Shown here: one piece after another, positions 21,476 to 48,401 of the stretch
Layout of the letters: each line of letters starts with the position of its first letter
How positions within the stretch are numbered: position 1 is the stretch's first letter
Source of the DNA: Rhodanobacter sp. Root480
Lineage (GTDB): Bacteria; Pseudomonadota; Gammaproteobacteria; Xanthomonadales; Rhodanobacteraceae
NCBI RefSeq assembly: GCF_001426645.1
Contig: NZ_LMEX01000002.1
Span: 516,322-580,321 of the forward strand
Length of the DNA stretch: 64,000 nt
Direction of reading: 5' to 3'
The notes under the pieces: model-generated
What the model saw: only the letters and a program-made list of their open reading frames with translations
Told to the model about the DNA's origin: nothing
The model's database searches: none
Position numbers and translations under genes: made by a program

Positions 21476-21479
21476 TCAG
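21434..21479. repeat. Hairpin repeat overlapping the phytase stop codon
   Basis: On the minus strand the gene ends in TGA, which is part of GCTGAGAGGTTG; after a short loop, CAACCTCTCAGC pairs with it perfectly, and CCGGCCAT follows. The same module (see 28089-28134) overlaps the stop codon of an unrelated kinase gene. It may act as a transcript-end stabiliser. There is no T-run, so a classic terminator is less likely. Confidence 0.75.
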
Positions 21480-23539
21480 CGCATCTCCAACTTCAGTACC
21501 TTGGCAATCGACTCCCATGGCACGTACTTGTAGTTCTGGTTTTGCGAGGGCAGGACGTTGCGACCGTCTTGCGCCACCATGGCGCCGTGCTCGAAGCCAG
21601 GGCCCAGGTTGCGGCTGCTGACGTCGAGGCCGTCGGTTTCGGAGATGCCATCGATGCCGCGCGCGCCGTCGGCCACCACGGCGAATGAGCCCAGGTAGGC
21701 GTGATCGCCTTCGCGGCGGTACACGGCGTACGTGTCGTTGCCCTGGCTGGAAACCACCACATAGCCGCGGCCATTGCCCAGGTCGTAGATGCCCATGCCT
21801 TCGATGTCATCCTTGATCGCGGGGTTGCTTTCCACGCGGTCGACCGCCGTCATCGCGCTACCGCCGTCCGGTTCGGGATCCATCTTCCACAGCGCCACGT
21901 CTTCCTCGCCCACGAACAGCGCGCCGCCGATGTCGTCAGCCACGCAGCCCTCGGCCTGGCTGGGGATCTTGAACTCGCGCACCTGCGCGGTACGCACCTT
22001 GCCATTGCCCGCATCCCGCAGTTCCCACTGCCGCATCAGGCCATCGCCGCTGTTGATGAAGACGTACGTCTTGTGGCTTTTCGCGCTGCGGTACATGCAC
22101 AGGCCGTACGGATCATCGAGGCCCGTGGGCTGCACGCCATCGGCCACGTTGACGAGTTGGCGCGCGTCGCCATCGAGACGGTAGATCGCGATCGACTTGT
22201 GAGTGCGATCGCTGGCGGTCACCAGCGTGACCTTTTTGCCGCCCAGGCTGAAACCATCGCGCAGGTCGGTATTGTTCATCTTGCCGTCGGGCAGGAATTG
22301 CACCAGGTCACCCTGCATGTCGTACACCACCATGCCGGCCTTCTTGTCGGTGGCCACTACCAGGCTTTTCGCAGGATCGGTCGGGTGGGCCCAGATGGCC
22401 GGGTCGTCGGCCGCATCGCCGTAGCTGCCGACAGGGCGGGTTTCCACCAGGGCGGTCACCGTGGCGATGGCAGGTTTCGGTGCGTTGCGCGGGTCCTGCG
22501 GCGTGCCAGACGAGAGCTTCAGCGCGCTGGCCACGTCGGCCATCGATACCAGCTTGTAGTTGCTGCCGCCATCCTCGTCGCCGATCAGCAGCACGCCATG
22601 CGGAAAACCGCTACCAAGCGCGGCGCTGGTGGCAAACAGCGGGCCGAGATCGGCTACGGTGTCCTTCTGGTCGCCAGCGCTGACACTGAAGCTGCCCAGG
22701 AGCGCGTTGTCGTGGGCGCGGTCGTAGACATTGATGCGGCCCTCCGAGGTGTTCGACACCAGCAGCCACTGGCTGTCCTTGCCGCCGTCGTACAGCGCTA
22801 CGCCTTCGTTCTCCTCGCCCAAATGGCCCAACCGCGGCGCGTCCACCAAGGTGGCGGCGAGGTCTGCCTCCGGATTGCCGTTCAGATGCCAGACGCCCAC
22901 CGTCTGCTCGTTGATATAGACGTCACCGGCACTGTTGGCGGTGCACTGTTTCAGCTTGGAGGGCAAGTTGATGCGGCGTACCTGGCGCGCATCCAGCTTG
23001 CCCTCGGCGTTGGCGTAGATCATCTGTTGATCCACCTCGCCGCCGTCACCGATCACGAAGGCGTAAAAGGCGTTGTCCAACTGGCTGCGATAGAGGCAAA
23101 CGCCCTCGACAGCAAAGTCGAGCGGAATGGCGCGGGCGCCGGCTTCGACGGGCGTGTCACCGTGCATGGTGAACAACCGCAGGCTGTTGCCGGTGGATTC
23201 GACCGCGGCCAGGATGGTTGTGGGTTTGCCGTTGAGCGAAAAGCCGTAGCCCACGTCCACTCCCGCCACCTCGCCGGCAGGGGTGCTGTGCTGGCTCGCG
23301 CCGTCCATGCCGAACACTTGCAGCCCCCCCAGCGCCGCGGCCGCAACGACGTGTGCCTGACCGTCGGGACCAGCCACCACCACGGCCGCATTGGCCTTGC
23401 CGCTGCTGGTCGGCTGTGTCTGCACGCGTGCAGGGACGGTCGTCGTCCCCGTCGCTGGAGCGCTGCGTGTTGCGCCGCCGCAACCCACGGCGCCGAGCGC
23501 GAGGGTTGCCACCAAACCGTAAAGAAACAGTGCTTTCAT
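21476..23539 (-). CDS. Two-domain beta-propeller phytase, lipoprotein
   Basis: Hydrolyses phytate (inositol hexakisphosphate), normally as its calcium complex. The 687-residue product has a lipoprotein signal ending LGAVGC. The C-terminal propeller (about 365-687) carries the family blocks DDPAIWAHPTDPAKSLVVAT, NNTDLRDGF, AEGCVADDIGGALFVGEEDV, DDIEGMGIYDLGNGRGYVVV and GIDGISETDGLDVSSR, whose acidic residues bind calcium and phosphate. The N-terminal half (about 40-345) is a divergent, incomplete propeller (VEGVCLYRSQLDNAFYAFVI; GEENEGVALYDGGKDSQWLL). In studied two-domain phytases the partial domain helps with lower inositol phosphates. ATG 23539 follows GAGGAG; the upstream 16 codons are excluded because they precede the lipobox signal. 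It diverges from a TonB receptor. Confidence 0.93.
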   Translation of the reverse strand: MKALFLYGLVATLALGAVGCGGATRSAPATGTTTVPARVQTQPTSSGKANAAVVVAGPDGQAHVVAAAALGGLQVFGMDGASQHSTPAGEVAGVDVGYGFSLNGKPTTILAAVESTGNSLRLFTMHGDTPVEAGARAIPLDFAVEGVCLYRSQLDNAFYAFVIGDGGEVDQQMIYANAEGKLDARQVRRINLPSKLKQCTANSAGDVYINEQTVGVWHLNGNPEADLAATLVDAPRLGHLGEENEGVALYDGGKDSQWLLVSNTSEGRINVYDRAHDNALLGSFSVSAGDQKDTVADLGPLFATSAALGSGFPHGVLLIGDEDGGSNYKLVSMADVASALKLSSGTPQDPRNAPKPAIATVTALVETRPVGSYGDAADDPAIWAHPTDPAKSLVVATDKKAGMVVYDMQGDLVQFLPDGKMNNTDLRDGFSLGGKKVTLVTASDRTHKSIAIYRLDGDARQLVNVADGVQPTGLDDPYGLCMYRSAKSHKTYVFINSGDGLMRQWELRDAGNGKVRTAQVREFKIPSQAEGCVADDIGGALFVGEEDVALWKMDPEPDGGSAMTAVDRVESNPAIKDDIEGMGIYDLGNGRGYVVVSSQGNDTYAVYRREGDHAYLGSFAVVADGARGIDGISETDGLDVSSRNLGPGFEHGAMVAQDGRNVLPSQNQNYKYVPWESIAKVLKLEMR

Positions 23540-23728
23540 CCCCAACTCCTCGCTATCGGCCACGCCCGTGCGCGGCCGTTTAGCCAACCATACGGGAGAA
23601 GATTACCATTTGCACGAAAAATTCCAAGAGTGTTGCAAATTAGAAAATTTATTCGTAATCTACGTTTGCCAGATGCTTCGCCATGGGGGCGCAGTCGAAG
23701 TTGGCACGTCTTCGGGGGTAGATGATCC
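23540..23728. promoter_or_regulatory. AT-rich divergent promoter with nested inverted repeat
   Basis: Between the phytase and its divergent TonB receptor lies an AT-rich stretch in otherwise GC-rich DNA. It contains GATTAC (23601-23606) and ATTTGCA (23608-23614) on the left, and TGCAAAT (23634-23640) and GTAATC (23655-23660) on the right, forming nested inverted repeats. A shared regulator site for both genes is a reasonable inference. I do not see a good Pho box. Confidence 0.5.
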
Positions 23729-26164
23729 ATGACCACTTTTCGCCGAAATGCGTTGCACGCAGCCCTGCTTTTGAGCGGGTGCGTGCTCGCCACACCCGGC
23801 TTCGCTCAGGACGCCGGCGCCGGCACCGCAGCCAGCGACAACGAGCAAGCCGCAGCCACAGAAGATAAAAAGACCATCGACCTGCAGGGCATGGTCGTGA
23901 CCGGCAACATCGAATACCGCAGCCACATCGACATTCCCGCGCCGGTGCTGGTGTACGACCAGCAGTTCTTCGCCAAATTCGAGCCGGTGTCGGTGGGCGA
24001 CCAGTTGCGCCGCGTCCCGGGTGTGGCTTTCGTCGGCGACGTGGGCGAATCGGTGGCGCCGGAAATGCGCGGCCTGGGCAACGGCTACACACAGATCCTG
24101 ATCAATGGCCGCTCGGTACCCGGCATCGGCAACGATCGTTCGGTGGCCGTTGACCGTATCCCAGCTGAAATCATCGACCGCATCGAGATTGTGCGTTCGC
24201 CGTCGGCGGAATTCGACAGCCAGGGCGTGGGCGGCACCATCAACATCATCCTGAAGGACGGCGCCACGCTGCCGCCGGGCGTGATCGTGCGCGTTGGCGA
24301 GACATGGGACAAGAAGACCGGCAGGATCCGGCCCAACGCTGCGTTTTCGTGGTCCGGCGGCAACGACGCGAAGAACCTTTTCTACTCGTTGACGTTAGAC
24401 GCGCAAAAACGCTTCAACGAGAAGCATGCCATCCAGGAAGTAGTCGACGGCAATACCGTCGGGTTCGCCGACGCGATCGCCGCCCACAGCAACGGCCACG
24501 ACCTGCAGAGCTGGAACAACGCCGCCAAGTCGCGTGCGGCGTCTCGCGAGGAGCAAGGCGATACGCGCGAATCGAGGGACCTTTCCTTCAATGGCGACCT
24601 GACCTGGCTGCTCTCCGACATGACCAGCCTGCGGGTGGACGCGTTCGCGATGCAGACGCGCCGCGATGAATACGAGAACACGCGTACCTACGAGGGCGAC
24701 GGCACCGTGGGTGGCCTGGATCTGCAGAATCCGGAGCGCAAGTTCGAAAAAACGCCCATGGACGAAGACAGCTACGGCCTGTCGGCCGTGTTCAACACGT
24801 CGTTCAACGACCAGACCGATTTCGAGGCCTACCTGGGCCGCAACAGCACCAAGGGCAGCACCGTAAAGCACTACTTCAAAGACACACCCGATACCAAGGA
24901 TAAGGTCAAAGGCACCTCGGCGGACGACAAGAATTGGCAGGCCGACGCCTCTGTCACACGCCGCATGCCGGGTCTAGCCAAGTCGCTGGGCATCGATGCG
25001 GCGACGCTGAAAGTCGGCGTGCAGCTGAAGAACAAGGACCGCACGTTCACCGAGTCGGAAATATCCGGCCTCAGCAAAGCGAAGCAGAAAGGCACGGCGG
25101 GCGATTACCAGTACGACGAAAACCGCTTCGACACGTATGCCAAGGTGGACTGGAACCTGTCTTCCGCGGTGACGTTAACCACCGGCGTGCGCGGCGAAAA
25201 AACGCGGACGAGCCAGAACTTCGTCACGACCGAATCCACCAACGGTGTGGCGGACGGGCAAACGAGGGGCAGTGCCGACAGCCACGCGTTCATGCTCAAT
25301 CCATCAGCGCATCTGCAGTGGAAGCTGACTGACGCGGACCAGTTGCGTTTCAGCGTCGCGCGTACCGTGCGCCGGCCCGGCGTCGATCAGCTGGTGCCTT
25401 CGATCACACTCGAATCGCCGGGCGACTACGACGTTACAATTGGCAACCCGAATCTGAAGATGGAACGCGCGCTCGGCTTCGATCTGGGCTTCGAGCACAA
25501 CATCGGCAAGAGCGGCGTGGTGGGCGTGAACCTGTTCCAGCGCAACATTACCGATCTCATCGGCATGGTGCGGACCCTGCGCCCGGTGACCGACGCTGGC
25601 CAGGACCCGGACGATTTCCCAGGCGGGCTGTACAGCTTCCAGAACATCGGCAAGGCCAAGGTCCGTGGTGCCGAGTTCGATCTGTCGATGCCGTTGACCT
25701 TCATGGGGATGGACCACACCGGCGTGTTCGGCAATTACACGCGGTTGTTCTCCAAGCGCCTCAATCCGATCACGAATCGCGACACGACCATCGATGACCA
25801 GCCCTCGTATGTCTACAACGTGGGCGTCACTCAGGAAATCCCTGCGTGGAAAGCCAGCTTCGGCGCCAGCTATCAGAAACAGGGCCCGGCCTACCAGCAC
25901 AACTCGCCGGGCGAAATGCAGAGCACCATCTACGGCGGCAACCTCGAGCTGTTCCTGGAGAAGCGATTGGGCAAGTCGTACGTGGTTCGCCTGACCGGAA
26001 ACAATCTGCTGGACTCTTGCAGCCAGCAGCTGGAGCAGGATTTTGCCGGTGACGATGCCGCCGAGATGATGGCCAACAACCGGGCATACAACGTCGATTT
26101 TATGGAGCTGGAACGTGAATGCTCCTCGCCACGTTGGTCACTGACGTTGCGCGCCGTATTCTAA
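23729..26164 (+). CDS. TonB-dependent outer membrane receptor, phytate-locus
   Basis: A 22-stranded-barrel type receptor of 811 residues with a signal peptide (about 1-26, ending GFAQ). The plug domain spans about 55-190 (VSVGDQLRRVPGVAFVGDVG, MRGLGNGYTQILINGRSVPG, IEIVRSPSAEFDSQGVGGTI). The barrel ends in a C-terminal aromatic (RAVF), as outer-membrane proteins usually do. The barrel half fits the outer-membrane beta-barrel (CirA/FepA-like) family. It diverges from the beta-propeller phytase and precedes a histidine acid phosphatase, so its substrate is plausibly phytate, a metal-phytate complex or a partly dephosphorylated product. The substrate is inferred from context only. A terminator follows. 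Confidence 0.9.
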   Translation: MTTFRRNALHAALLLSGCVLATPGFAQDAGAGTAASDNEQAAATEDKKTIDLQGMVVTGNIEYRSHIDIPAPVLVYDQQFFAKFEPVSVGDQLRRVPGVAFVGDVGESVAPEMRGLGNGYTQILINGRSVPGIGNDRSVAVDRIPAEIIDRIEIVRSPSAEFDSQGVGGTINIILKDGATLPPGVIVRVGETWDKKTGRIRPNAAFSWSGGNDAKNLFYSLTLDAQKRFNEKHAIQEVVDGNTVGFADAIAAHSNGHDLQSWNNAAKSRAASREEQGDTRESRDLSFNGDLTWLLSDMTSLRVDAFAMQTRRDEYENTRTYEGDGTVGGLDLQNPERKFEKTPMDEDSYGLSAVFNTSFNDQTDFEAYLGRNSTKGSTVKHYFKDTPDTKDKVKGTSADDKNWQADASVTRRMPGLAKSLGIDAATLKVGVQLKNKDRTFTESEISGLSKAKQKGTAGDYQYDENRFDTYAKVDWNLSSAVTLTTGVRGEKTRTSQNFVTTESTNGVADGQTRGSADSHAFMLNPSAHLQWKLTDADQLRFSVARTVRRPGVDQLVPSITLESPGDYDVTIGNPNLKMERALGFDLGFEHNIGKSGVVGVNLFQRNITDLIGMVRTLRPVTDAGQDPDDFPGGLYSFQNIGKAKVRGAEFDLSMPLTFMGMDHTGVFGNYTRLFSKRLNPITNRDTTIDDQPSYVYNVGVTQEIPAWKASFGASYQKQGPAYQHNSPGEMQSTIYGGNLELFLEKRLGKSYVVRLTGNNLLDSCSQQLEQDFAGDDAAEMMANNRAYNVDFMELERECSSPRWSLTLRAVF

Positions 26165-26281: not shown

Positions 26282-27586
26282 ATGCTCAAGACACGTCCGA
26301 TGCTGCCTGCCCTGCTGGCAGGCGCCTTCGTGCTGGTAGCGGGCGCCTGCACGCGTCCGCATGAAGCGCCCCCCGCGCCGGCCCCCGCCGCTTCCACGCA
26401 CGCCAGTTCCGCGCCCACCGTTGCGCCCAGCGAGTTGCGGCTGGAACGCGTGGTCATGTTGATGCGCCATGGCGTGCGCCCGCCCACCAAGCCGCAGGTC
26501 ACCCCGCCAAGGACCAACGATCAACCGTGGCCCAAATGGACCACGGATTTCGGAGAGTTGACCACGCACGGTTACGACGCGGTGCGTCTGCTCGGCGAGT
26601 GGGACCGTGCCAACTGGGCGGCGCGCGGCCTGCTGCCCGCCGCAGGTTGCCCGGCAGTGGCCGACGTGGATGTGGCGGCGAGCTCCAAATCGCGCACCCA
26701 GGCGACGGCGCGTGCCCTGCTGGAGGGGCTTGCGCCGGGCTGCCACATCGACGTCTCGTTCCCCGCCGACAAGCACGACGACGTGGTGTTCCATCCTCTG
26801 GAGACCGGCGCGATGGCGATCGACGCCGACGAAGCCATGCGCGCGGTGGAGGCAGTGATGCCGCCCGGCGGCATGGCCGCGGAAGTGAAGGCCAACGCGC
26901 CACTCTTCGAATTGCTCAACCACGCACTGGGCTGCACGCCCGGCGCCGCGTGCGATATCTCGACCATGCCGGCTGGCCTGGTGCGCAACGAGAACGATCG
27001 CCCGGATGTGGGCGACCCGTTCGGCATCGCCTCCACCGCCAGCCAGACCTTCCTGCTGGAATACCTCGAAGGCATGCCCATGAAGGATGTCGCCTGGGGG
27101 CGCCTCGATCGCAAACGGATCGCGACCCTGCTCGAGTTCCATCCGATCAAGTATCGCTATGAAGGCCGCGTGCCATACGTTGCCGATCGTGCTGCCTCAC
27201 CGTTGGCCGCGCGTATGCTCGCCGCCGTGGAGCACGGCCCCAAGCTCACGTTGCTGGTAGGCCACGACACCAACATCGCCGACCTCGGCGGCATGCTCGA
27301 CCTGCATTGGCAGGTGCCCGGCTATCCGCGCGACGATCCGCCGCCTGCCGGCGCGATCGGTTTCGAGGTCCTGGCCGATGCCGCCGGCGAGCAGTTCGTG
27401 CGTGCGTTCTACCGCTCGCAGACGATGGACCAGGTGCGTGAGCTGCAGAAGCTGGATGAAGGCAACTCGCCGTCCTACGAATATCTGTCGATCCCGGGGT
27501 GCGACCAGCGCTGCCCCATCGCGGACTTCGAGCGGATCGTGGGCGCCAAGCTGATCGAGCCGCTGCGTACGCCAGCGGCGAAGTGA
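26282..27586 (+). CDS. Histidine acid phosphatase (AppA/phytase-like), lipoprotein
   Basis: Branch-2 histidine phosphatase of 434 residues. A lipoprotein signal ends VAGAC (Cys about residue 23), followed by a Pro/Ala-rich linker. The catalytic motif MLMRHGVRPPT (about 58-68; His nucleophile) and the distal HDTN (about 327-330; His-Asp proton donor) are both present. These are the features of phytases and glucose-1-phosphatases such as AppA and Agp. The position next to a beta-propeller phytase and a TonB receptor favours a phytase or lower-inositol-phosphate phosphatase. The enzyme would act at the membrane surface or in the periplasm. A strong hairpin follows the stop. Confidence 0.92.
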   Translation: MLKTRPMLPALLAGAFVLVAGACTRPHEAPPAPAPAASTHASSAPTVAPSELRLERVVMLMRHGVRPPTKPQVTPPRTNDQPWPKWTTDFGELTTHGYDAVRLLGEWDRANWAARGLLPAAGCPAVADVDVAASSKSRTQATARALLEGLAPGCHIDVSFPADKHDDVVFHPLETGAMAIDADEAMRAVEAVMPPGGMAAEVKANAPLFELLNHALGCTPGAACDISTMPAGLVRNENDRPDVGDPFGIASTASQTFLLEYLEGMPMKDVAWGRLDRKRIATLLEFHPIKYRYEGRVPYVADRAASPLAARMLAAVEHGPKLTLLVGHDTNIADLGGMLDLHWQVPGYPRDDPPPAGAIGFEVLADAAGEQFVRAFYRSQTMDQVRELQKLDEGNSPSYEYLSIPGCDQRCPIADFERIVGAKLIEPLRTPAAK

Positions 27587-28017: not shown

Positions 28018-28134
28018 CGTGCCCGGCCATCGGGCAACCGCTCCCTGCGTTGCCCCAACTCGGGCATCCTTGCCCTCGCCATGCCCTCTATGGCCGGGCT
28101 GAGAGATTGGAAAATCACAACCGCTCAGCCCGGC
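28018..28134. repeat. Composite intergenic repeat ending in a stop-codon hairpin
   Basis: The left part (about 28022-28090) carries CCGGCCATCGGGCAACCGCT, TGCGTTGCC and CTCGGGCATCC, also present near 33176-33225. The right part (28089-28134) is the module GGCCGGGCTGAGAGATTG... CAACCGCTCAGCCCGGC, homologous to 21434-21479, and its TGA is the stop codon of the kinase gene that ends at 28125. No gene is supported in 27863-28124. Confidence 0.75.
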
Positions 28135-30509: not shown

Positions 30510-30550
30510 GCTGACAACAAGCTGACATCGGGCGTGGCGTGGATGTCAGC
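30510..30550. promoter_or_regulatory. Putative PhoP-type response-regulator box
   Basis: GCTGACA at 30510-30516 and again at 30521-30527 gives a direct repeat with an 11-bp period, the geometry of OmpR/PhoP-family tandem sites. An inverted copy TGTCAGC lies at 30544-30550. The site sits between the PepSY-regulator-kinase operon and a divergent TonB receptor, so it could control both. Confidence 0.6.
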
Positions 30551-40745: not shown

Positions 40746-42580
40746 GACAAATCCCTCTTCATTCGTGTGCCTTGCTCGTAGGCGCGGCGCGCCGCTTCGA
40801 CTTCAGGCCGTTGGGAAACTTCGGGCACCGCGACGTCCCACCACCAGCCGCCGGCTTCGGTGCTTTTCAATGGATCGGTATCGATGACGACCACGTAGCT
40901 GCGCTCAGCCTTGCGGGCGCGAACCATGGCGGCGGTCAGTTCGCCCAGCGAGGTCACGTGCTCGGACAGTGCGCCCAGGCTGGCCGCGTGGGCGGCGAAA
41001 TCGATCTGCGGCAATACCTGATGCGTGGCGTCGGCCAGCAGGTTGTTGAAACCGGCGCCACCGGTGGCGTGCTGCAACCGGTTGATGCAGCCGTAACCGC
41101 GGTTGTCCAGCAACACTACGATCAGCTTGTGGCCCAGCATCACCGACGTCGCCAGCTCGGAGTTCGCCATCAGATAGCTGCCGTCGCCGACCATCACCAC
41201 CACGTCGCGATCGGGCGCGGCCATCTTCACACCCATGCCGCCTGCAATCTCGTAACCCATGCACGAGAAGCCGTACTCGACGTGATAGCTGCCCTGCCGC
41301 GCGGAGCGCCACAACTTGTGCAACTCACCGGGCAGGCCACCGGCGGCGCACACCACGATGGCGCCATCGCCACAGCTGCGCTGTACCGCACCGATCACCT
41401 GGGCATCGCTGGGCTGCGTCTGCGCATCGATGCCGGTGGTGGCGGCATCGACGGCGGCGTTCCACTCTTCGATTTCGTGCTGCCTGCCCACTTCCACGCC
41501 CGCATGCCAACCCGACAATTCCCGGGCCAGGGCCTGCAACACAGTGCGTGCGTCGCCCACCACCGCCAGCGCGTCGTGCTTGTGCGCATCGAACGCCTGC
41601 ACGTTGATCTGCGCCACACGTGCATCGACAAACAGGCTGCGCGAGCCGGTGGTGAAATCCGCCAGCCGGGTGCCGATGCCGACCACCAGATCGGCACGTG
41701 CGGCGGCCGCGTTGGCGGCGCTCGATCCGGTGACGCCGATCGAGCCCAGCGCGTTGGGGTGGTTCCACGGCAACGCACCCTTGCCCGCCTGGGTTTCAGC
41801 GACGGCCAGGCCGGTGGCTTCGGTCAGCGCTGTCAGCTCCGCTTCCGCCTCGCTGTAGAGCACACCGCCCCCGGCGATGAGCAGGGGGTGCCTGGCCGAC
41901 TTCAGCGCGGCGACCAGCGCCGCCAGCTCGCCGCTGTCCACACCCTGCCGCCGCTCGCGCCACAACCGGGGCGCGAAGAAGGTTTCCGGATAATCGAAGG
42001 CCTCGGCCTGCACGTCCTGGCAGAACGCGATGGTGGCCGGGCCGCAGGTGGCCGGGTCGAGCATCGTCGCCAGCGCTTTCGGCAGGGCATCCATGATCTG
42101 CTCCGGCCGCGTGATGCGGTCGAAATAGCGCGACACAGGACGGAAGCAGTCGTTGGCCGACACGCTGCCGTCAGTGAAATGCTCCACCTGCTGCAGCACC
42201 GGGTCAGGTTGGCGGCCGGCGAAAACGTCGCCCGGCAACAGCAACACCGGCAAGCGGTTCACGTACGCCAGCGCGGCGGCCGTCACCATGTTGGTGGCGC
42301 CGGGGCCGATCGAGCTGGTGCACACCATCGCGCGACGGCGACGCATCTGTTTCGCGTAGGCAATGGCGGCGTGCGCCATGCCCTGCTCGTTGTGCGCGCG
42401 CCAGGTGGGAAAGCTGTCACGCGCGGCATGCAGCGCCTCACCGATACCGGCCACGTTGCCGTGTCCGAAGATGGCCCAGGCACCGGCGAAGTAAGGTGCC
42501 TCGCGGCCATCCACCAGCACGTGTTGTGCAGCCAGCCAGCGCACGGTCGCCTGTGCCGCCGTCAGTCGTCGCGTTGTCAT
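40742..42580 (-). CDS. iolD: 3D-(3,5/4)-trihydroxycyclohexane-1,2-dione hydrolase
   Basis: Thiamine-diphosphate-dependent ring-opening enzyme of 612 residues in the acetolactate-synthase fold; it forms 5-deoxy-D-glucuronate. The PYR domain has GHGNVAGIGEAL and the catalytic Glu in RAHNEQGMAHAAIAYAK; the C-terminal TPP motif reads MVGDGSYLMANSELATSVML ... DNRGYGCINRLQ. The frame is open 24 codons upstream, but ATG 42580 gives the conserved start MTTRRLTAAQATVRWLA and sits 1 bp after the iolC stop. Confidence 0.96.
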   Translation of the reverse strand: MTTRRLTAAQATVRWLAAQHVLVDGREAPYFAGAWAIFGHGNVAGIGEALHAARDSFPTWRAHNEQGMAHAAIAYAKQMRRRRAMVCTSSIGPGATNMVTAAALAYVNRLPVLLLPGDVFAGRQPDPVLQQVEHFTDGSVSANDCFRPVSRYFDRITRPEQIMDALPKALATMLDPATCGPATIAFCQDVQAEAFDYPETFFAPRLWRERRQGVDSGELAALVAALKSARHPLLIAGGGVLYSEAEAELTALTEATGLAVAETQAGKGALPWNHPNALGSIGVTGSSAANAAAARADLVVGIGTRLADFTTGSRSLFVDARVAQINVQAFDAHKHDALAVVGDARTVLQALARELSGWHAGVEVGRQHEIEEWNAAVDAATTGIDAQTQPSDAQVIGAVQRSCGDGAIVVCAAGGLPGELHKLWRSARQGSYHVEYGFSCMGYEIAGGMGVKMAAPDRDVVVMVGDGSYLMANSELATSVMLGHKLIVVLLDNRGYGCINRLQHATGGAGFNNLLADATHQVLPQIDFAAHAASLGALSEHVTSLGELTAAMVRARKAERSYVVVIDTDPLKSTEAGGWWWDVAVPEVSQRPEVEAARRAYEQGTRMKRDLS

Positions 42581-42581
42581 C

Positions 42582-44534
42582 TCACACCGCCTTGCGCGTG
42601 ATGCCCTTGGATGTGTCGCCGGACGCCTCGGCACGTGCCGCGCGCCATGCATTCACCAGCGTGCCGAAACTTGCGGCGAGATCGGCCACGGCCGCGTCAT
42701 CGTCGATGTCGCCGGCCAGCCAGCGCGCAGCGGCATCGGCGAAGATCGTTCGACCCACCGCAAACCCTTTCACGATCGGACTCGCCGCAGCCACCCGGAA
42801 CGATGCCGCCAGCGCCGCCTCGCTTGCCTGCAGGCCCAGCAGCAGCACGCCGCGGCACAGGGGATCGTTGCTGCGGATGGCGTGTTCGACATTCGCCCAC
42901 GTCGCGCTGTCCGCCGCCGGCTCGAGCTTCCACCAGTCCGGTTTCATGCCCTGAGCATAGAGACGCTGGATAGCGCGCGCCGCGGTGTGCTCATCGACGG
43001 CGCCGTGGCGCGACACGATGACCTCCAGCAGCAGCTCATGCCTCGTCTTGCGACAGGCATCCTGCAAACGGCGCAACTGACGCTCCTGCTGCTCCAGCAG
43101 GTCGATCGGGTCGTCCGGATGATAGAACACCAGGCACTTCACCACGTGGTTGCGCGGCCAGGTAGCCACTTCGGTGGCCACGTCCGCGGAGCTTTCAAAA
43201 GCCAGCGGGCGCGAACCCGGCAGCTCGATGGGCCGGCCGATCCAGTACGGCGAATCGGCGGCCGCCTCCAGCCCGCGCATGCCATAGCGGCCATCGAGCA
43301 GCACGCCAAAATGTTCGCCGGGCTTTGCCAACTGGTTCACCGCGCGCAACGTCAGCGCCTTGAACGCCGGGATGCGCGCCGGGTCGGCGCCGGTTTCGCG
43401 GCACAGATCCTCGAACTGACTGCGATGATCCATCGCCAGCACGGTGAGGTCGTCGTAGACGCCGGTGCGGGTGGAAGCCCAGTGCACGTGTTCCAGCGCG
43501 GCATCGTCGCGCAGGCGGAAGGGTCGCGGCGTGCCATCGAGAAACTGCTGCAACTCGTCCCAGGTCGGCATCGCGGGCGCGCAGCCGTGGCGCGAAACCA
43601 CGATGGCACCGCAGGCATTGCCGTATTCGCAGGACATCTCCAAGGGTTCGTCGCGCAACCAGCCGCGCAGGAAACCGGCCATGAACGCGTCACCCGCGCC
43701 CAGCACGTTGAACACCTCGATCTCGAAACCGCGCCCCACCACGCCATCATCAAGGCGGTCGGGGATGGCGTCTGGAAACGCGGAGCACCCGTGAGCGCCA
43801 CGCTTGCAAACCAGCAGCGCAGGCGTCTTCTCGCGGATGGCGCGCATTGCGGCGATGGTGTCGGTGGAGCCGCCGAGGATGTGCATCTCCTCCTCGGTGC
43901 CCACGATCAGATCGCACAGCGGCAACACCTCCTGCAACCGGGCGGTGACGCCGGCATGGGCCACGAAGCGGTTCTCGCCCATGTCCTTGCTGGTCAACCC
44001 CCACAGCACCGGTCGATAGTCGATGTCGAAAACCACCCGCGCCCCGGCAGCACGTGCGATGCGGCAGGCCTGCACCGAGGCGTCGAACACGTTCAATTGC
44101 GACAGGTGCGTACCGTTGATCAGCACTGCGCCGGCCGAGCGCACGTAGCTCTCGTCGATGTCGTCGGTGACCAGCGCCATGTCGGCGCAGTTCTCGCGAT
44201 AGAAGATCAGCGGAAACGTATCGGGATCACTGATCCCCAGAAACACCAGCGCGGTCAGTCGCTCGTTGTCGATGACAACACCATCGGTGGCCACACCCTC
44301 GCGCGCCAGTTGCTCGGTGATGAATCGGCCAAAATGGTCGGCGCCCACGCGGGTGATCAGCCCGCTGTGCAATCCCAGCCGCGCAACGCCAATGGCGGTG
44401 TTGGTGGGGCTGCCGCCAACGTATTTGGCGAAGGAAATCATGTCTTCGAGCCGACCTCCGGTCTGCTCGCCATATAGATCAATGCTCGATCGGCCGATGG
44501 TGATCAGATCAAGCTGCTGCGCTGCCCCTGGCAT
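42582..44534 (-). CDS. iolC: 5-dehydro-2-deoxygluconokinase fused to DUF2090
   Basis: Two-domain protein of 650 residues. Residues about 8-325 form a PfkB-family sugar kinase that phosphorylates 2-deoxy-5-keto-gluconate (GRSSIDLYGEQ, FAKYVGGSPTNTAIGVARLG, catalytic Asp in FNVLGAGDAFMAGFLRGWL). Residues about 345-640 are a DUF2090 domain (LTVLAMDHRSQFEDL, FGVLLDGRYGMRGLE, KPDWWKLEPA, PIVKGFAVGRTIF), a TIM-barrel related to LacD-type aldolases. As no separate iolJ aldolase is seen, DUF2090 probably cleaves the phosphorylated product to dihydroxyacetone phosphate and malonate semialdehyde. ATG 44534 is preferred to a GTG two codons earlier. It heads iolC-D-E-B. Confidence 0.95.
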   Translation of the reverse strand: MPGAAQQLDLITIGRSSIDLYGEQTGGRLEDMISFAKYVGGSPTNTAIGVARLGLHSGLITRVGADHFGRFITEQLAREGVATDGVVIDNERLTALVFLGISDPDTFPLIFYRENCADMALVTDDIDESYVRSAGAVLINGTHLSQLNVFDASVQACRIARAAGARVVFDIDYRPVLWGLTSKDMGENRFVAHAGVTARLQEVLPLCDLIVGTEEEMHILGGSTDTIAAMRAIREKTPALLVCKRGAHGCSAFPDAIPDRLDDGVVGRGFEIEVFNVLGAGDAFMAGFLRGWLRDEPLEMSCEYGNACGAIVVSRHGCAPAMPTWDELQQFLDGTPRPFRLRDDAALEHVHWASTRTGVYDDLTVLAMDHRSQFEDLCRETGADPARIPAFKALTLRAVNQLAKPGEHFGVLLDGRYGMRGLEAAADSPYWIGRPIELPGSRPLAFESSADVATEVATWPRNHVVKCLVFYHPDDPIDLLEQQERQLRRLQDACRKTRHELLLEVIVSRHGAVDEHTAARAIQRLYAQGMKPDWWKLEPAADSATWANVEHAIRSNDPLCRGVLLLGLQASEAALAASFRVAAASPIVKGFAVGRTIFADAAARWLAGDIDDDAAVADLAASFGTLVNAWRAARAEASGDTSKGITRKAV

Positions 44535-44622
44535 ATGCACGTTCTCTCACGGGTACCCGACGCCCGTCGCGCCGAATGCACGTAAAATATATTCCATTTA
44601 TTTCTTAAAAGCAACGTACGTT
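44535..44622. promoter_or_regulatory. iolC promoter region with weak IolR-like site
   Basis: An AT-rich 88-bp gap precedes iolC. GTAA-N6-TTCC at 44582-44595 differs by one base from the GGAA-N6-TTCC motif. A further exact GGAA-CGCGTG-TTCC falls at 44632-44645, inside the last codons of the regulator gene. Either could serve as an operator. Confidence 0.4.
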
Positions 44623-45513
44623 TCATTTTTTGGAACGCGTGTTCCCACCGAGTGTCGAACCATTGCGCGTCTGCGTGCTGGTGGCGAATGCGTAGGAGAT
44701 CACCAGCGCCTGCGCCAGACACATCGATGCGGACAGCGAACGGAACGCACGGATCTCCGCCTCGCGCACCTGCAACACCACCGTCGCCGGCTTCGCCACC
44801 GGGCTGACCAGGCTGTCGCTGATCGACAGCACACGGCAACGCTGGGCGGTGGCCGCATCGATCAATTGCACGGCCTCCTCCGCGTACGGGTGATAGCTCA
44901 CCGCAATCAGCAGGTCGCGTTTCGAGATGGCGTGCACCTGCTGCCGGGTCATGCCGCCGATGCTGTCGATGAACACGGTTTTCTTGTCGACCTGGTGCAA
45001 CGAATAGGCAAGGTAGGCGGCCACCGGAAACGCGCGACGAAAGCCGGCCACGTAAATCGTCTCGGCCTCACGGATCAGCTTGACGGCGGCGGCCAGGTTT
45101 TTCTTGCCGATCGCATCGCCCAGGTTCTGCAGCGCCAGTACGTTGCCCTGCACGAATTCCGCCAGCACTTGCGCCGGGTCTCCTACCAGTTTGCTGTCCA
45201 CGCTCTGGCTGAATTGGCGCACGCGCTCGCCATAACCCAGCGACGCATTGCCCGAGAGCAGACCGTCACGGAACAGGCGCTGCATCTGCGTGGCGCCCTC
45301 GAAACCGAAGGACTTGGCAAACCGCACGATCGCCGAGGGCTGCACGCCGCAACGCGCGGCCAGCACCGCCAGCGTTTCCAGCGCCACCGCGTTGGGTTCA
45401 TCCAGGACATAGCGGGCGATCTGCTGCAGCCGCTTGCTGAGCCCTTCGTAGCGCTCGAGGATGGCAGCGCGCAACTCGTCGGCGTTGGTCGGGGGTACGT
45501 CCACTTCAACCAT
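44623..45513 (-). CDS. iolR: RpiR-family regulator, candidate inositol repressor IolR
   Basis: A 296-residue transcription factor. The N-terminal RpiR helix-turn-helix domain (about 10-85: LAVLAARCGVQPSAIVRFAK, SFGFEGATQMQRLFRD) precedes a SIS sugar-phosphate-binding domain (about 125-265: IYVAGFRRAFPVAAYLAYSL, KRDLLIAVSYHPYAEEAVQL). RpiR-type IolR proteins repress inositol genes in rhizobia, probably sensing a phosphorylated pathway intermediate. It lies between iolC (same strand) and iolG (divergent), the usual place for such a regulator. ATG 45513 has a strong GGAAGGA site. The name is assigned by family and context. Confidence 0.88.
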   Translation of the reverse strand: MVEVDVPPTNADELRAAILERYEGLSKRLQQIARYVLDEPNAVALETLAVLAARCGVQPSAIVRFAKSFGFEGATQMQRLFRDGLLSGNASLGYGERVRQFSQSVDSKLVGDPAQVLAEFVQGNVLALQNLGDAIGKKNLAAAVKLIREAETIYVAGFRRAFPVAAYLAYSLHQVDKKTVFIDSIGGMTRQQVHAISKRDLLIAVSYHPYAEEAVQLIDAATAQRCRVLSISDSLVSPVAKPATVVLQVREAEIRAFRSLSASMCLAQALVISYAFATSTQTRNGSTLGGNTRSKK

Positions 45514-45659
45514 GATTTCCTTCCTCCCTAAATGCGACGTGCATCCAGGCTGGACGCGCATATTGAAAAAAAATACATCTTCCCAGAAATTCTATTACAC
45601 TCGCAAACGGAACATACATTCTATTATCGCGCAACCCGATTTTCGGGGGGAGTGTACTC
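45514..45659. promoter_or_regulatory. Divergent iolR-iolG control region
   Basis: An AT-rich 146-bp gap. GGAA-CATACA-TTCT at 45609-45622 is one base from GGAA-N6-TTCC. ATTCTATTA occurs twice, at 45589-45597 and 45618-45626, 29 bp apart and on the same face of the helix (about three turns). These are candidate binding sites for the divergently encoded regulator. Confidence 0.5.
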
Positions 45660-46664
45660 TTGGACCGGATCGACATCGCACTGATCGGAGCTGGCCGCAT
45701 GGGTCAGATCCACGGCGGAAACGCCGCCCGCCACCCCCGGCTCCGCCTCAAGTACATCGTCGATCCGCGACCGGCCGCAAGCGCGTTCGCCGCGCAGTAT
45801 GACGCCAGGTTGGTGACGCTTGAACAAGCGCTGGCGGATCCCGCCGTGGGCGGCGTGCTGGTGTGCAGCACCACCGATCTGCACCTGGAACATGCACTGG
45901 CGGCAGTCGGCGCGGGCAAGGCCGTGTTCTGCGAAAAGCCGATCGACCTGGACCTGGACAAGGTACGCGCTGCGCAACCGCGTTTCGACGGTGCGCGTTT
46001 CCTGCTCGGCTTCAACCGTCGGTTCGACCCGCAGTTCATACGCCTCAAGCAGCAACTGGATGCGGGCACGGTAGGCCAGCTGGAGTCGCTGCATCTGGTG
46101 AACCACGATCCCGCCGCGCCGCCACCGGGTTTCGTGCCCACCAGCGGTGGCCTGTTCAAGGACTTCACCATCCATGACCTGGACATGGCGCGCTGGCTGA
46201 TGGGCGAGGAACCGGTACAGGTATTCGCCACGGCCAGTTGCCTGGTGGACCCGGACATCGGCCGCGAGGGAGACGTCGACACTGCCCGCTGCGTCCTGAA
46301 GACCGCCAGCGGCCGTCTGTGCGTGATCTCGAACACGCGCCGCAGCGGCTATGGCTACGACCAGCGCATCGAAGCACTCGGCGCCCTCGGCATGATTTGC
46401 GCGGGCAACGTGGCCTGCGACACCGTGCATACGCTCACCGAAAACGGCACCGTCGGCGCGCCGATCATGCCGGCGTTTGCGCAACGCTATCGCGACGCCT
46501 ACCGCGACCAGATCGGCCATTTTGCCGACGTGGTGCACGGTCGCTCCGAACCTCTCATCGGTTACGCCGACGGCGTGGCCGCCCTGGTCCTGGCTGAGGC
46601 GTGCGGGTGGTCCGCGCGCCATCAGCAGGTCTTCAACCTCCCCAACGAGAATCCTCATGCATAA
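45660..46664 (+). CDS. iolG: Inositol 2-dehydrogenase, first copy
   Basis: GFO/IDH/MocA-family NAD-dependent dehydrogenase of 334 residues that oxidises myo-inositol to scyllo-inosose. The Rossmann motif ALIGAGRMGQIHGGN opens the protein; the catalytic Lys lies in VFCEKPIDLD, and FKDFTIHDLDMARWLMGEEP carries the Asp/His pair. It starts at TTG 45660, the only sensible start before the Rossmann fold, with a G-rich ribosome site about 10 bp upstream. The 3' end overlaps the next iolG copy by 8 bp. It diverges from iolR. Isomer preference (myo-, scyllo- or D-chiro-inositol) cannot be read from sequence. Confidence 0.93.
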   Translation: MDRIDIALIGAGRMGQIHGGNAARHPRLRLKYIVDPRPAASAFAAQYDARLVTLEQALADPAVGGVLVCSTTDLHLEHALAAVGAGKAVFCEKPIDLDLDKVRAAQPRFDGARFLLGFNRRFDPQFIRLKQQLDAGTVGQLESLHLVNHDPAAPPPGFVPTSGGLFKDFTIHDLDMARWLMGEEPVQVFATASCLVDPDIGREGDVDTARCVLKTASGRLCVISNTRRSGYGYDQRIEALGALGMICAGNVACDTVHTLTENGTVGAPIMPAFAQRYRDAYRDQIGHFADVVHGRSEPLIGYADGVAALVLAEACGWSARHQQVFNLPNENPHA

Positions 46665-47634
46665 AGTCGTGCTTATCGGTGCTGGCCGCATTGGCCATAT
46701 CCACGCGCGCAACGCCGCGCTGCATCCGCGCATCGAACTAGCCGGCGTGGTCGATGCGGTCGACGCTTCGGCCCAAGCGCTGGCCCGCGAATGGAATACC
46801 GCGGTAACGACGCTCGACGCGGCCATGGCCGACCCGACCGTCACCGGCGTGATCGTGGCCAGCTCTACCGACACGCACCTCGATTACAGCCTGCGCGCGG
46901 CTGCCGCCGGCAAGATGATCTTCTGCGAAAAGCCGATTGATCAGGATCTCGGCCGTGCCCGCACCGCCCATGCAGGCCTTTCGGGCGCCAACATGTTGCT
47001 GGCATTCAACCGACGTTTCGACCCCAATTTCCAGGCCTTGAAGGCCCGTCTGGACAGCGGCGCGGTCGGCGCGATCGAAACCCTCCAGATCACCTCCAAC
47101 GACCCTGCCCCACCGCCGCCTTCTTATATCGCCGTTTCCGGAGGCCTATTCAAGGACATGGCGATCCATGACTTCGACATGGCGCGCTGGCTGCTGGGCG
47201 AGGAGCCCGTGCTGGTCTACGCCACCGGCAGTTGCCTGGTAGACCCGGCCATCGGCGAACTGGGCGATGTCGACACCGCGCGGACCGTGCTGAGGACCGG
47301 CTCCGGCCGCCTGTGCGTCATCTCCAACAGCCGGCGCAGTGGCTTCGGTTATGACCAGCGGGTCGAGGCGTTCGCCTCCGCCGGCATGGTGCGCGCGGAC
47401 AACGTCAGCGAAAGCACTGTACAGCTCTGGAGCGAAAGCGGCATCGCGACCGACCGCTTTCAAAACTTCTTCCTCGACCGCTACGCAGAAGCCTATCGTT
47501 GTGAAATGGATCACTTTGCCGCGATGCTCGATGGCGCGCCCGCACAGGTTGGCTACGCCGACGGCGTGGCCGCACTGGCGTTGGCCGAGGCGGCGGATGA
47601 ATCCATGAGAACCGGAGCGCCGGTGCAGCTATGA
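46657..47634 (+). CDS. Inositol 2-dehydrogenase, second copy
   Basis: A tandem paralogue of the preceding gene, 325 residues, with the same order of motifs: VVLIGAGRIGHIHARN, IFCEKPIDQD, FNRRFDPNFQALK, FKDMAIHDFDMARWLLGEEP, and SCLVDPAIGELGDVDTA. The two proteins are similar along their whole length, so this looks like a tandem duplication that has since diverged. It may take scyllo-inositol or D-chiro-inositol, while the first takes myo-inositol. ATG 46657 overlaps the previous stop region. Its own stop overlaps the triosephosphate isomerase start (ATGA), so all three are one operon. Confidence 0.92.
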   Translation: MHKVVLIGAGRIGHIHARNAALHPRIELAGVVDAVDASAQALAREWNTAVTTLDAAMADPTVTGVIVASSTDTHLDYSLRAAAAGKMIFCEKPIDQDLGRARTAHAGLSGANMLLAFNRRFDPNFQALKARLDSGAVGAIETLQITSNDPAPPPPSYIAVSGGLFKDMAIHDFDMARWLLGEEPVLVYATGSCLVDPAIGELGDVDTARTVLRTGSGRLCVISNSRRSGFGYDQRVEAFASAGMVRADNVSESTVQLWSESGIATDRFQNFFLDRYAEAYRCEMDHFAAMLDGAPAQVGYADGVAALALAEAADESMRTGAPVQL

Positions 47635-48401
47635 AGCACACCATGCGCAGAAAAATTGTGGCCGGAAACTGGAAGATGTACGGCAGTCGCTCCATGGCTT
47701 CGGACCTCGCCGGCGCCATTGCCGCCAATATGCCGGCCGAAATCGATATCGCCGTGTTTCCCCCGCTTCCCTACATCGCTGGCCTGCGCGCGCAACTCTT
47801 CGGCTCGGGGCTGCAGTTCGGTGCGCAGGATCTCAGCGAGCGCGAAGGTCAGGGCGCTTTCACGGGCGACGTAAGCGCCGCGATGCTCGTGGATGTCGGT
47901 GCGAACTACGTATTGGTGGGCCACTCGGAGCGCCGCAAATACCACGGCGAAAGCAACGAATGCGTCGCACGAAAATTCGCTGCAGCGCGGGCGGCAGGGC
48001 TCACGCCCATCCTTTGTGTCGGTGAAACAAGGCAACAGCGAGACAGTGGCGAAACAGAGGCGATTATTGGCCAGCAACTGGATGCGGTATTGAAACTCAA
48101 CGGCATCGCGAGCTTCGACACAGCGTTGATCGGATACGAACCGGTCTGGGCGATAGGGTCCGGTGAGACGGCGACACCGCAGCAGGCGCAAGACGTTCAC
48201 GCGTTCATTCGTAGCAAACTCGAAAAGGAAGATATTTCAATTGCCCGTCGGACGCGGCTGCTTTATGGCGGCAGCGTCACCACATCCAACGTTGCAAAAT
48301 TACTTGCGCAAGCCGACATAGATGGCGGATTGGTTGGCGGCGCGGCACTGACTGCAATCGACTTCCTTGAAATTTGCGCCGCGGCGCAACAGACGCCATA
48401 G
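47631..48401 (+). CDS. tpiA: Triosephosphate isomerase within the inositol operon
   Basis: Glycolytic isomerase of 256 residues that converts dihydroxyacetone phosphate to glyceraldehyde-3-phosphate. Catalytic Lys and Asn lie in VAGNWKMYGS, His in VLVGHSERRKYHG, Glu and the flexible loop in YEPVWAIGSGETATPQQAQD; the phosphate loop is LLYGGSV ... GGLVGGAAL. The ATG at 47631 overlaps the stop of the second iolG (ATGA); ATG 47643 (MRRKIVAGN) is the homologous start of other TpiA proteins and could be the real one. Dihydroxyacetone phosphate is an end product of inositol breakdown, so the gene fits the pathway. A secG relic follows, as expected after a chromosomal tpiA. Confidence 0.95.
   Translation: MKHTMRRKIVAGNWKMYGSRSMASDLAGAIAANMPAEIDIAVFPPLPYIAGLRAQLFGSGLQFGAQDLSEREGQGAFTGDVSAAMLVDVGANYVLVGHSERRKYHGESNECVARKFAAARAAGLTPILCVGETRQQRDSGETEAIIGQQLDAVLKLNGIASFDTALIGYEPVWAIGSGETATPQQAQDVHAFIRSKLEKEDISIARRTRLLYGGSVTTSNVAKLLAQADIDGGLVGGAALTAIDFLEICAAAQQTP

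Follow-up and report, generated by a model that had tools for sequence, protein, structure and literature searches.

A putative phytate-utilisation locus in Rhodanobacter sp. Root480 joining phytases, an organophosphate antiporter and inositol catabolism

Gene content of the locus

The window, the whole stretch of DNA analysed here, comprises 64,000 nucleotides of Rhodanobacter sp. Root480 (contig NZ_LMEX01000002.1, positions 516,322 to 580,321). Between its positions 21476 and 48401, genes for phytase, TonB-dependent receptor, phosphatase, antiporter and inositol catabolism (iol) lie side by side. Searches with Pfam, NCBIfam and motifs recovered every gene named in the preliminary description at its given place. 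That account had set two blocks about 6 kb apart; the interval is no gap, however, as it holds a histidine kinase, a response regulator, a PepSY protein and a second TonB receptor, and both the two-component system and this receptor had been overlooked.

21476..23587, minus strand: dual-domain beta-propeller phytase (BPP), probable lipoprotein; Pfam PF02333 (Phytase), 2e-132
23729..26164, plus: TonB-dependent receptor (TBDT1), divergent from BPP; Pfam TonB_dep_Rec, Plug
26282..27586, plus: AppA-phytase-like histidine acid phosphatase (HAP), probable lipoprotein; NCBIfam NF007552, motifs
28125..29480, minus: sensor histidine kinase (HK); Pfam HATPase_c and HisKA, the latter below its cut-off
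29477..30139, minus: OmpR-type response regulator (RR); Pfam Response_reg, Trans_reg_C
30139..30486, minus: small PepSY-domain protein, in front of RR; Pfam PF03413, 9.2e-12
30539..32653, plus: second TonB-dependent receptor (TBDT2); Pfam
33422..34894 (start codon assumed), minus: PhoD-like phosphatase/phosphodiesterase, Tat-type start NRRAFLAGS; Pfam PF09423, 3.4e-23
34882..35697, minus: inositol monophosphatase (IMPase); Pfam PF00459, 1.6e-60; DPLDGT and WDMA motifs
35703..37049, minus: MFS organophosphate antiporter (OPA); Pfam MFS_1; NCBIfam UhpC/PgtP/GlpT below cut-off
37313..38809, minus: iolA, (methyl)malonate-semialdehyde dehydrogenase; TIGR01722, 639.7 bits, above cut-off
39046..39855, minus: iolB; TIGR04378, 332 bits, above cut-off
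39852..40745, minus: iolE; TIGR04379, 383 bits, above cut-off
40742..42652, minus: iolD; TIGR04377, 913.7 bits, above cut-off
42582..44540, minus: iolC kinase fused to DUF2090 (DKGP aldolase); NF047869, 747.3 bits, above cut-off
44623..45561, minus: RpiR-type regulator, candidate IolR; Pfam HTH_6, SIS
45660..46664, plus: iolG1, inositol 2-dehydrogenase; TIGR04380, 360.5 bits, cut-off 355
46657..47634, plus: iolG2, inositol 2-dehydrogenase; TIGR04380, 397.4 bits
47631..48401, plus: triosephosphate isomerase (TIM); Pfam TIM, 1.1e-86

The BPP protein aligns with the phytase 1POO over residues 373-696 (4.9e-83). DAADDPAIW (at 391) and NNTDLR (at 438), matching what we take to be the beta-propeller phytase signatures DAADDPAIW and NN-D-R, occur only in its second, C-terminal domain; the N-terminal domain has neither, and the catalytic signature belongs to the C-terminal domain alone. 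For HAP, the top NCBIfam model is AppA phytase NF007552 (2.2e-66; 224 bits, below the cut-off of 585), the match to solved phytase structures reaches an E value of 1.9e-56, and RHGVRPP (residue 62) and GHD (327) correspond to the RHGxRxP and HD motifs that we take to mark histidine acid phytases of the AppA kind. Both proteins had initially been called lipoproteins; the two domains of BPP and the family of HAP held up, while the lipoprotein calls, made by eye, are only probable because the regular-expression check is weak (positive in 15 of 52 BPP and 5 of 23 HAP reading frames). TBDT1 adjoins BPP in relatives too and is presumed to be the outer-membrane entry for (lower) inositol phosphates.

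The iol cluster is complete, with iolG, E, D, B, C/J and A all above their NCBIfam cut-offs. The TIM gene is a second genome copy, the other lying at G000:C1:662851-663582. IMPase matches IMPase/SuhB structures (3.3e-64) and is presumed to be cytoplasmic, since no signal peptide was seen by eye; among the PhoD reading frames of the loci compared, 23 of 37 carry the twin-arginine motif.

The antiporter and its place in the cluster

GlpT, PgtP (TIGR00881) and UhpC are the top NCBIfam matches of OPA (213-267 bits, each below its cut-off), and alignment with the GlpT structure (3.9e-45) shows the substrate-site residues kept. Arg50, Arg267, His167, Tyr47 and Tyr82 (GlpT R45, R269, H165, Y42 and Y76) are present in all 83 OPA sequences, Tyr43 in 82 and Lys86 in 79. 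The MFS fold, together with equivalents of Arg45, Arg269 and His165, which we take to be the phosphate-binding residues of GlpT, places the protein in the organophosphate antiporter family. It shares fold family and phosphate-site residues with the GlpT/UhpT/UhpC-type antiporters but differs from them in its context of inositol and phytate genes and in forming its own subfamily, marked by Leu51, Asn132, Gln136 and Glu171 in every one of the 83 sequences. The substrate is not readable from the sequence; we propose that OPA imports inositol phosphate in exchange for inorganic phosphate (Pi). HAPs of the AppA type stop at Ins(2)P, which IMPases use poorly, and this counts against naming any one isomer as the transported one.

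Among 25 OPA-less iol clusters from the same family, an inositol-type ABC importer was found in 21, and OPA, BPP, HAP, IMPase and PhoD in none. Judged by gene content, OPA occupies the place of the ABC importer of these ordinary clusters. The importer queries found no match in the window, and no inositol-type ABC importer was seen beside OPA in the loci compared, the nearest case (L123) having 31-48% identity. Neither an ABC importer nor an IolT-type porter dedicated to inositol was found in the cluster, and a search for the inositol binding protein, run with no positive control, gave no match in G000 or in the same-genus genome G146.

Conservation of the linkage

The preliminary description had named a lack of conserved linkage in relatives as grounds for abandoning its reading. 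When relatives were compared, the linkage proved to be kept in Xanthomonadales/Lysobacterales, Caulobacterales, Sphingomonadales, Steroidobacteraceae and metagenome-assembled genomes (MAGs) of other phyla. In a set of 398 Pseudomonadota genomes, BPP was found in 42 and OPA at 60% identity or more in four, all four with BPP on the same contig 12-18 kb away; co-occurrence alone gives a Fisher p of 1.1e-4. Among the 17 OPA-like matches at E <= 1e-60, four have BPP (p 0.09), and the link holds for the close OPA subfamily only. OPA-like proteins at 22-45% identity were treated as other subfamilies; at three of their loci (L225-L227) the panel of window genes found no phytase and no iol genes, and at L227 an IMPase-like match (34%) adjoins the OPA homologue.

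Of 80 loci of OPA relatives, 31 have BPP or an AppA-like phytase in flanks of up to 10 kb, a further 15 have BPP 12.1-14.6 kb off on a contig confirmed by its matching length, and 5 more have it at similar distance on an unconfirmed contig. The 34 with no confirmed phytase inside about 15 kb include these five and some loci cut by contig ends. Whole-genome searches found both BPP and HAP absent in 8 of 50 cases, and at L125, L131 and L140 the two neighbours scanned at each were not inositol or phytate genes.

Many relatives likewise have HK, RR and TBDT2 next to the antiporter, with TBDT2 between HK-RR and PhoD/IMPase/OPA; the HK-RR-PepSY-TBDT2 stretch belongs to the system. The same-genus G146 and R. 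lindaniclasticus carry the phytase-TBDT1-HAP block directly beyond iolG2, which indicates that the gene order of the window is a rearrangement. The 51 kb read of G146 contain neither PhoD nor TIM, and about 16 kb separate its TBDT2 from IMPase.

Distant phyla have the antiporter, frequently together with BPP, inside a Thermotoga-type inositol pathway; the MAGs concerned carry the labels KSB1, Acidobacteria, Verrucomicrobiia and others. Homologues of the Thermotoga enzymes IolG-IolM-IolN-IolO and kinases like TM0415 (described in the accessible text of Nagata et al. 2018, PMC5931981, which contains neither "phytate" nor "phytase") surround the same antiporter, and 6 of 10 such clusters with the OPA family have a phytase in the locus. 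The window differs in having the iolBCDE route and IMPase. Across the 80 loci, IMPase (within 6 kb) occurs in 45, a TM0415-like pyrophosphate (PPi)-dependent inositol kinase (within 2.5 kb) in 23, neither in 12 and both in none, a mutual exclusion that suggests two ways of removing the last phosphate. The PPi motif RXGRGD is present in all 22 readable kinases; the five-residue PPi signature of TM0415 is incompletely kept, as the F221 position varies and M266 is found in 15 of 22.

Promoter sites

The operator motif of IolR is GGAA-N6-TTCC (Boutte et al. 2008, PMC2597717, accessible text). Motif scans located the following sites.

23642..23655: degenerate IolR-like box AGAA-N6-TTCG, two mismatches, BPP/TBDT1 divergent promoter
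30511..30528, plus strand: direct repeat CTGACA-N5-CTGACA, PepSY-RR-HK/TBDT2 intergenic region, score 11/14
37127..37140: exact IolR box GGAAGAATTATTCC, 77 bp ahead of the start codon of OPA
44582-44595: IolR box with one mismatch, upstream of iolC
44632-44645: exact IolR box upstream of iolC, within the 3'-terminal part of the RpiR gene
45609..45622: one-mismatch IolR box, regulator/iolG1 divergent promoter

Exact boxes before iolC and OPA, with a one-mismatch box before iolG1, are as expected of an RpiR-type IolR regulon. The window contains four exact matches in all, including ones at 9692 and 25152; that at 25152 falls within the coding sequence of TBDT1 and was not taken as an operator. 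Upstream of OPA, an exact box occurs in 10 of 82 regions (about 0.2 expected) and one with at most one mismatch in 27 of 83 (shuffled mean 5.35). Boxes of the latter class were found before TBDT1 in 10 of 12 regions (shuffled mean 1.10) and before BPP in 18 of 35 (2.57), and in none of the upstream regions of TBDT2 (0/18), RR (0/29) or PhoD (0/35). Several relatives have GGAA-N6-TTCG in the BPP/TBDT1 promoter at the same distance as the degenerate box of the window. The best Pho-box score in this promoter was 7/14, not a good match, for an E. coli-type box that may not be that of the host. The direct repeat at 30511..30528 has the top score among the scanned intergenic regions, with three such scores window-wide on both strands, and is a possible RR site.

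Discussion

Phytate is the main phosphorus store of seeds and makes up a large pool of the organic phosphorus found in soil and feed. Work on phytases has mostly dealt with phosphate scavenging and has kept inositol catabolism apart as a trait of its own. We consider it likely that the genes described here form a phytate-utilisation locus that imports inositol phosphate against phosphate. The phytate-to-glycolysis route put forward in the preliminary description is thereby supported, on genomic evidence, through the conserved linkage, the antiporter in the place of an ABC importer, the GlpT phosphate-binding residues and the exact IolR box.

At the outer membrane and in the periplasm, the BPP lipoprotein and the AppA-like HAP would remove phosphates from phytate, and the two TonB receptors would take (lower) inositol phosphates inside. 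OPA would then bring in an inositol phosphate, most likely a monophosphate, in exchange for Pi; cytoplasmic IMPase would take off the last phosphate and, since this frees Pi, supply the next exchange. IolG-E-D-B-C/J-A and the extra TIM would convert inositol to acetyl-CoA and glyceraldehyde 3-phosphate, and we infer that the host may grow on phytate as a carbon source. Control of the iol and OPA promoters, and in relatives of the phytase/TBDT1 promoter as well, probably falls to the RpiR-type IolR; PepSY-RR-HK probably controls TBDT2.

Parts of this arrangement are known. The myo-inositol module of Caulobacter crescentus (IolR, iolCDEBA, idhA, IbpA-IatA-IatP; PMC2597717) has the same catabolic enzymes, an RpiR-type regulator and the same GGAA-N6-TTCC operator, but its ABC transporter imports free inositol, and in the accessible text "phytase" appears once, in a reference title. 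A phytase adjoins a TonB receptor in Citromicrobium (PMC3400609), as here, although that pair, as far as the accessible text goes, is linked neither with an organophosphate antiporter of the inner membrane nor with inositol catabolism. Gut cross-feeding likewise leads from phytate through inositol to central metabolism (PMC12838507), and the survey of pig isolates in the accessible part of that source found no conserved gene neighbourhood around phytase genes across genera. No description of the joined phytate-antiporter-inositol system was found in the literature searched, in which subscription journals are thinly covered and several sources were accessible in part.

The best-surviving alternative, which we nevertheless think unlikely, is that two separate functions are neighbours: the phytase-TBDT1-HAP block would serve phosphate starvation, phytate would be fully dephosphorylated outside the cytoplasm, the iol genes would burn free inositol, and OPA would carry some other organophosphate. 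The receptor beside the Citromicrobium phytase has been interpreted as one for phytic acid (PMC3400609), the PhoB regulon of Caulobacter crescentus includes a phytase and several TonB receptors (PMC11208175), as the accessible parts of these sources state, and two full PF00083 sugar-porter genes elsewhere in the genome might carry free inositol. Yet OPA, with its IolR box, is found within or next to iol clusters of either chemistry, and the ABC importer of ordinary clusters was not seen beside it; the phytase promoter gave no good match to the E. coli-type Pho box, and in relatives the phytase/TBDT1 promoter has IolR-like boxes. The IolR boxes and the importer swap led us to reject pure phosphate scavenging as the main explanation.

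Less probable still is that OPA imports inositol 1-phosphate or a similar ester freed by the PhoD-like phosphodiesterase from phosphatidylinositol or glycerophosphoinositol, with phytate one source among several. In many relatives PhoD does come shortly after OPA and IMPase, also where the fetched stretch has no phytase, and L118 has a 2H-phosphodiesterase and a TonB receptor next to OPA, L143 an Exo_endo_phos protein; but phytase genes recur beside OPA across phyla, PhoD-less loci included, and G146 has OPA, IMPase and phytase with no PhoD in the 51 kb read. That the genes are together merely by the chance of one island transfer, as the patchy distribution (close OPA in 2 of 197 genomes of the family) and the displaced phytase block of the window might suggest, is hardly credible. 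The recurrence with two unrelated inositol pathways has already gone far to refute it, the blocks staying together despite rearrangement (G146, window), in gamma- and alphaproteobacteria and, with the other inositol pathway, in other phyla.

The phytate locus might also, more tentatively, represent a general modular system of several phyla, in which phytase, TonB receptor and inositol phosphate:Pi antiporter are constant, and two parts are exchangeable, the last-phosphate enzyme and the route of inositol breakdown (iolBCDE or IolM-N-O); we hold this possible, though short of an even chance. In loci that have no IMPase, the TM0415-like kinase, directly after the antiporter, would run backwards, from inositol phosphate and Pi to inositol and PPi, and would keep the phosphate bond energy as pyrophosphate. 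The joined locus would offer a possible physiological role for the PPi-dependent inositol kinase family.

For the likely phytate-utilisation locus itself, the joined genes would supply a set that can be tested in bacteria with phytate as their carbon source, and would propose a bacterial inositol-phosphate importer, of which no example was found in the literature searched, accessible in part. The recurrence of the locus in many other bacteria suggests a widespread but undescribed way of eating phytate.

Gene content of the probable phytate-utilisation locus

Every gene family that the preliminary description had named in proposing a route from phytate to glycolysis was confirmed in the window (G000:C2:516322-580321, within a 3.67-Mb genome of completeness 99.99), in this order:

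Left part: beta-propeller phytase (BPP), diverging from the TonB-dependent receptor TBDT1; AppA-type histidine acid phosphatase (HAP); sensor histidine kinase (HK), response regulator (RR) and PepSY-domain protein, reverse strand; second TonB-dependent receptor (TBDT2), forward strand
Right part: PhoD; inositol monophosphatase (IMPase); organophosphate antiporter (OPA; 35703-37049); iolA; iolB; iolE; iolD; iolC-DUF2090; RpiR; all reverse strand
Right end: iolG1; iolG2; triosephosphate isomerase (TIM; 47631-48401); forward strand

Five bases separate OPA from IMPase, and IMPase overlaps PhoD provided that PhoD starts at the assumed GTG. The TIM gene is one of two in this genome (the other at G000:C1:662851-663582), and loci L085, L089, L092, L098 and L102 of relatives likewise have TIM-like genes close to OPA. 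A 202-aa membrane-like ORF 3' of TBDT2 (32671-33279) belongs to no Pfam or NCBIfam family and, among the OPA loci, has no listed tblastn match.

The antiporter aligns with the GlpT structure (1PW4) at 3.9e-45. Its R50, R267 and H167 correspond to the GlpT phosphate-site residues R45, R269 and H165 (chain numbers 44, 268 and 164 in the 1PW4 alignment) and are kept in 83/83 OPA sequences; Y43, Y47, Y82 and K86, equivalent to GlpT Y38, Y42, Y76 and K80, are kept in 82, 83, 83 and 79 of 83. Because these site residues are kept, the sequence predicts a phosphate ester as substrate, whose identity the residues do not specify.

Linkage of phytase, antiporter and inositol genes

Two of 197 family genomes, the host and its same-genus relative G146, carry OPA at 94-100% identity; matches at E up to 1e-3 extend to 72, the best after these two having 26% identity. 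BPP is found in three of the 197 at E below 1e-30 (the same two and G050) and in seven at E up to 1e-3, and iolD exceeds its cut-off in 32. The 51 kb read in G146 hold BPP, TBDT1, HAP, IMPase, OPA, iolA-B-E-D-C, RpiR and both iolG genes, with the phytase-TBDT1-HAP block immediately past iolG2 and TBDT2 at the left edge, ~16 kb from IMPase; neither PhoD nor TIM turned up within these 51 kb, and HK-RR, if present, would lie past that edge. Rhodanobacter lindaniclasticus (L223), the nearest named relative in the OPA search of GTDB genomes (94% identity), has the G146 order, iolG2-HAP-TBDT1-BPP, on a single contig, and since the two share this arrangement the window is a rearranged version of the locus.

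Among 398 Pseudomonadota genomes, OPA at 60-100% identity is present in 4 and BPP in 42. BPP lies on the OPA contig in all four, at 12.2 kb (G000), 14.3 kb (G227), 13.0 kb (G567) and 18.0 kb (G435); co-occurrence alone gives a Fisher p of 1.1e-4. With all 17 OPA-like matches at E up to 1e-60 counted, p is 0.09, and the BPP association is therefore a property of the close OPA subfamily. Two BPP matches (E up to 1e-15) in a single frame occur in all four OPA genomes and also in G353 and G497 (loci L228 and L229), which have no antiporter at E up to 1e-60.

GTDB genomes gave 374 OPA relatives, of which we considered the best 80 (54-94% identity), chosen regardless of neighbours, with flanks of 10 kb each or up to the contig end. 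These flanks contain BPP in 26/80 loci, HAP in 7/80 and either phytase in 31/80. For 50 of the 80 (loci without BPP in the stretch, minus four on short contigs) the whole genome was searched; BPP was recovered in 38, HAP in 27 and neither in 8. BPP is 12.1-14.6 kb from OPA on the matched contig in 15 further loci, 12.7-14.6 kb away in L080, L082, L090, L091 and L116, where the contig match is unconfirmed, and 33.6 kb away in L148. In the fetched stretches one order recurs, HK-RR / TBDT2 - PhoD - IMPase - OPA - iolA-B-E-D-C - RpiR / iolG1-iolG2 - HAP - TBDT1 / BPP. The genera that show it, with genes lost or inverted here and there, are Luteimonas, Pseudoxanthomonas, Arenimonas, Brevundimonas, Caulobacter and Phenylobacterium.

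L071, on a contig labelled as a Phenylobacterium metagenome-assembled genome (MAG), shares its gene order with Rhodanobacter L072, and the two have nearly equal protein identities to the window; L071 was probably misbinned or very recently transferred. Pleomorphomonas oryzae (L110:9000-12700) carries a compact version, in which an IMPase-like gene is followed directly by OPA and HAP, with no iol genes found in the fetched stretch. OPA at L118:6659-12637 has a 2H-phosphodiesterase, a TonB receptor and a ROK-type regulator as neighbours, a set that may draw on inositol phosphodiesters as a further source. An Exo_endo_phos family protein immediately precedes OPA at L143:8786-9823; this family includes inositol polyphosphate phosphatases.

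As a control we read ~20 kb around iol clusters in 25 of the 30 iolD-positive, OPA-less family genomes. OPA, BPP, HAP, IMPase and PhoD were found in 0/25. A sugar ABC importer is present in 21/25, with a binding protein 61-100% identical to that of L155, itself one of the 25; the L155 protein scores 235 bits against the rhizopine-binding protein model, below the cut-off of 420. ABC matches near OPA are weak (26-48% identity, in 17/100 stretches checked), and the window has no ABC importer matches. OPA thus occupies the usual place of the inositol importer. Outside the locus, the host genome encodes two sugar porters of full length (PF00083; G000:C2:379069-380361 and G000:C3:270258-271553) that are possible carriers of free inositol.

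The literature search, within the texts available, found no description joining phytase, organophosphate antiporter, IMPase and iol genes. The main text of an iol cluster survey lacks the terms "phosphatase", "TonB", "antiporter" and "inositol monophosph-" (PMC9430895), and a 2026 pig-gut study saw no neighbourhood of phytase genes that was conserved across genera (PMC12838507). Phytase-TBDT adjacency is already known (PMC3400609), and the C. crescentus PhoB regulon includes a phytase (PMC11208175).

Candidate IolR boxes

A GGAA-N6-TTCC palindrome and an RpiR-type IolR control inositol genes in Caulobacter (Boutte et al. 2008, PMC2597717). Against 0.55 expected, the window contains four exact copies, of which one is upstream of OPA and another upstream of iolC, and the exact box precedes OPA in 10/82 upstream regions of other loci vs 0.2 expected. 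Allowing at most one mismatch in the 150 bp upstream, with duplicate sequences kept in the counts, we found the box before OPA in 27/83 (shuffled mean 5.35, maximum 10), TBDT1 in 10/12 (1.10, 3), BPP in 18/35 (2.57, 9), iolC in 25/54 and RpiR in 42/50, before HAP in 2/21, IMPase in 4/45 and iolA in 3/51, and, over the same 150 bp, before TBDT2 in 0/18, RR in 0/29 and PhoD in 0/35; these counts are not independent events, because BPP and TBDT1 share a promoter and common ancestry partly links the promoters. Nine TBDT1 boxes read GGAA-N6-TTCG and lie at -81 to -90; that of the window, at -87, has two mismatches, as does the G146 copy. In place of an IolR box, the divergent promoter between TBDT2 and the PepSY-RR-HK operon has a direct repeat of CTGACA.

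Proposed removal of the last phosphate and a second inositol pathway

Ins(2)P is the expected end product of HAP. IMPase lies within 6 kb of OPA in 45/80 loci and a PfkB protein within 2.5 kb in 23/80 (22 within ~0.2 kb, one at 0.9 kb); the two occur together in 0/80, and 12/80 have neither. The PfkB protein, homologous to the PPi-dependent inositol kinase TM0415, is found downstream of OPA in place of IMPase in L096, L099, L101, L103, L105, L106, L108, L114, L117, L120, L121, L129, L130, L132, L133, L135, L137, L138, L141, L142, L144, L145 and L146. The L138 protein has its best structure matches in TM0415 (1vk4, 1.2e-40; 5ysp, 1.8e-40) and in 7e4l, an entry whose name is PfkB domain protein (3.1e-42). 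TM0415 is a PPi-dependent inositol kinase with an RXGRGD motif and five signature residues (Nagata et al. 2018, PMC5931981). Among the 22 readable PfkB sequences of OPA loci, all keep the motif and the equivalents of K171, R229 and R232, 15 keep that of M266 (6 Leu, 1 Val), and the F221 position is variable. We propose that the kinase in these loci would run in reverse, a reaction that the discussion section of Nagata et al. does not treat.

OPA accompanies IolG, IolM, IolN and IolO of the Thermotoga-type pathway in MAGs whose labels include KSB1, Neomarinimicrobiota, Acidobacteria, Holophagae, Thermoanaerobaculales and Verrucomicrobiia. IolM, IolN and IolO exceed the NCBIfam cut-offs in L138, an unclassified bacterium bin, with IolG just below (345 vs 355); in L117 (Acidobacteria) IolG and IolM exceed theirs. 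By IolM homology 10/80 OPA loci are of this type (6 with phytase in the locus), 47/80 belong to the iolBCDE type (17 with phytase), and 23/80 show neither pathway (8 with phytase), some being cut by contig ends. It is this recurrence of OPA and phytase with two chemically different inositol routes that provides the strongest argument that the antiporter's substrate would be an inositol phosphate.
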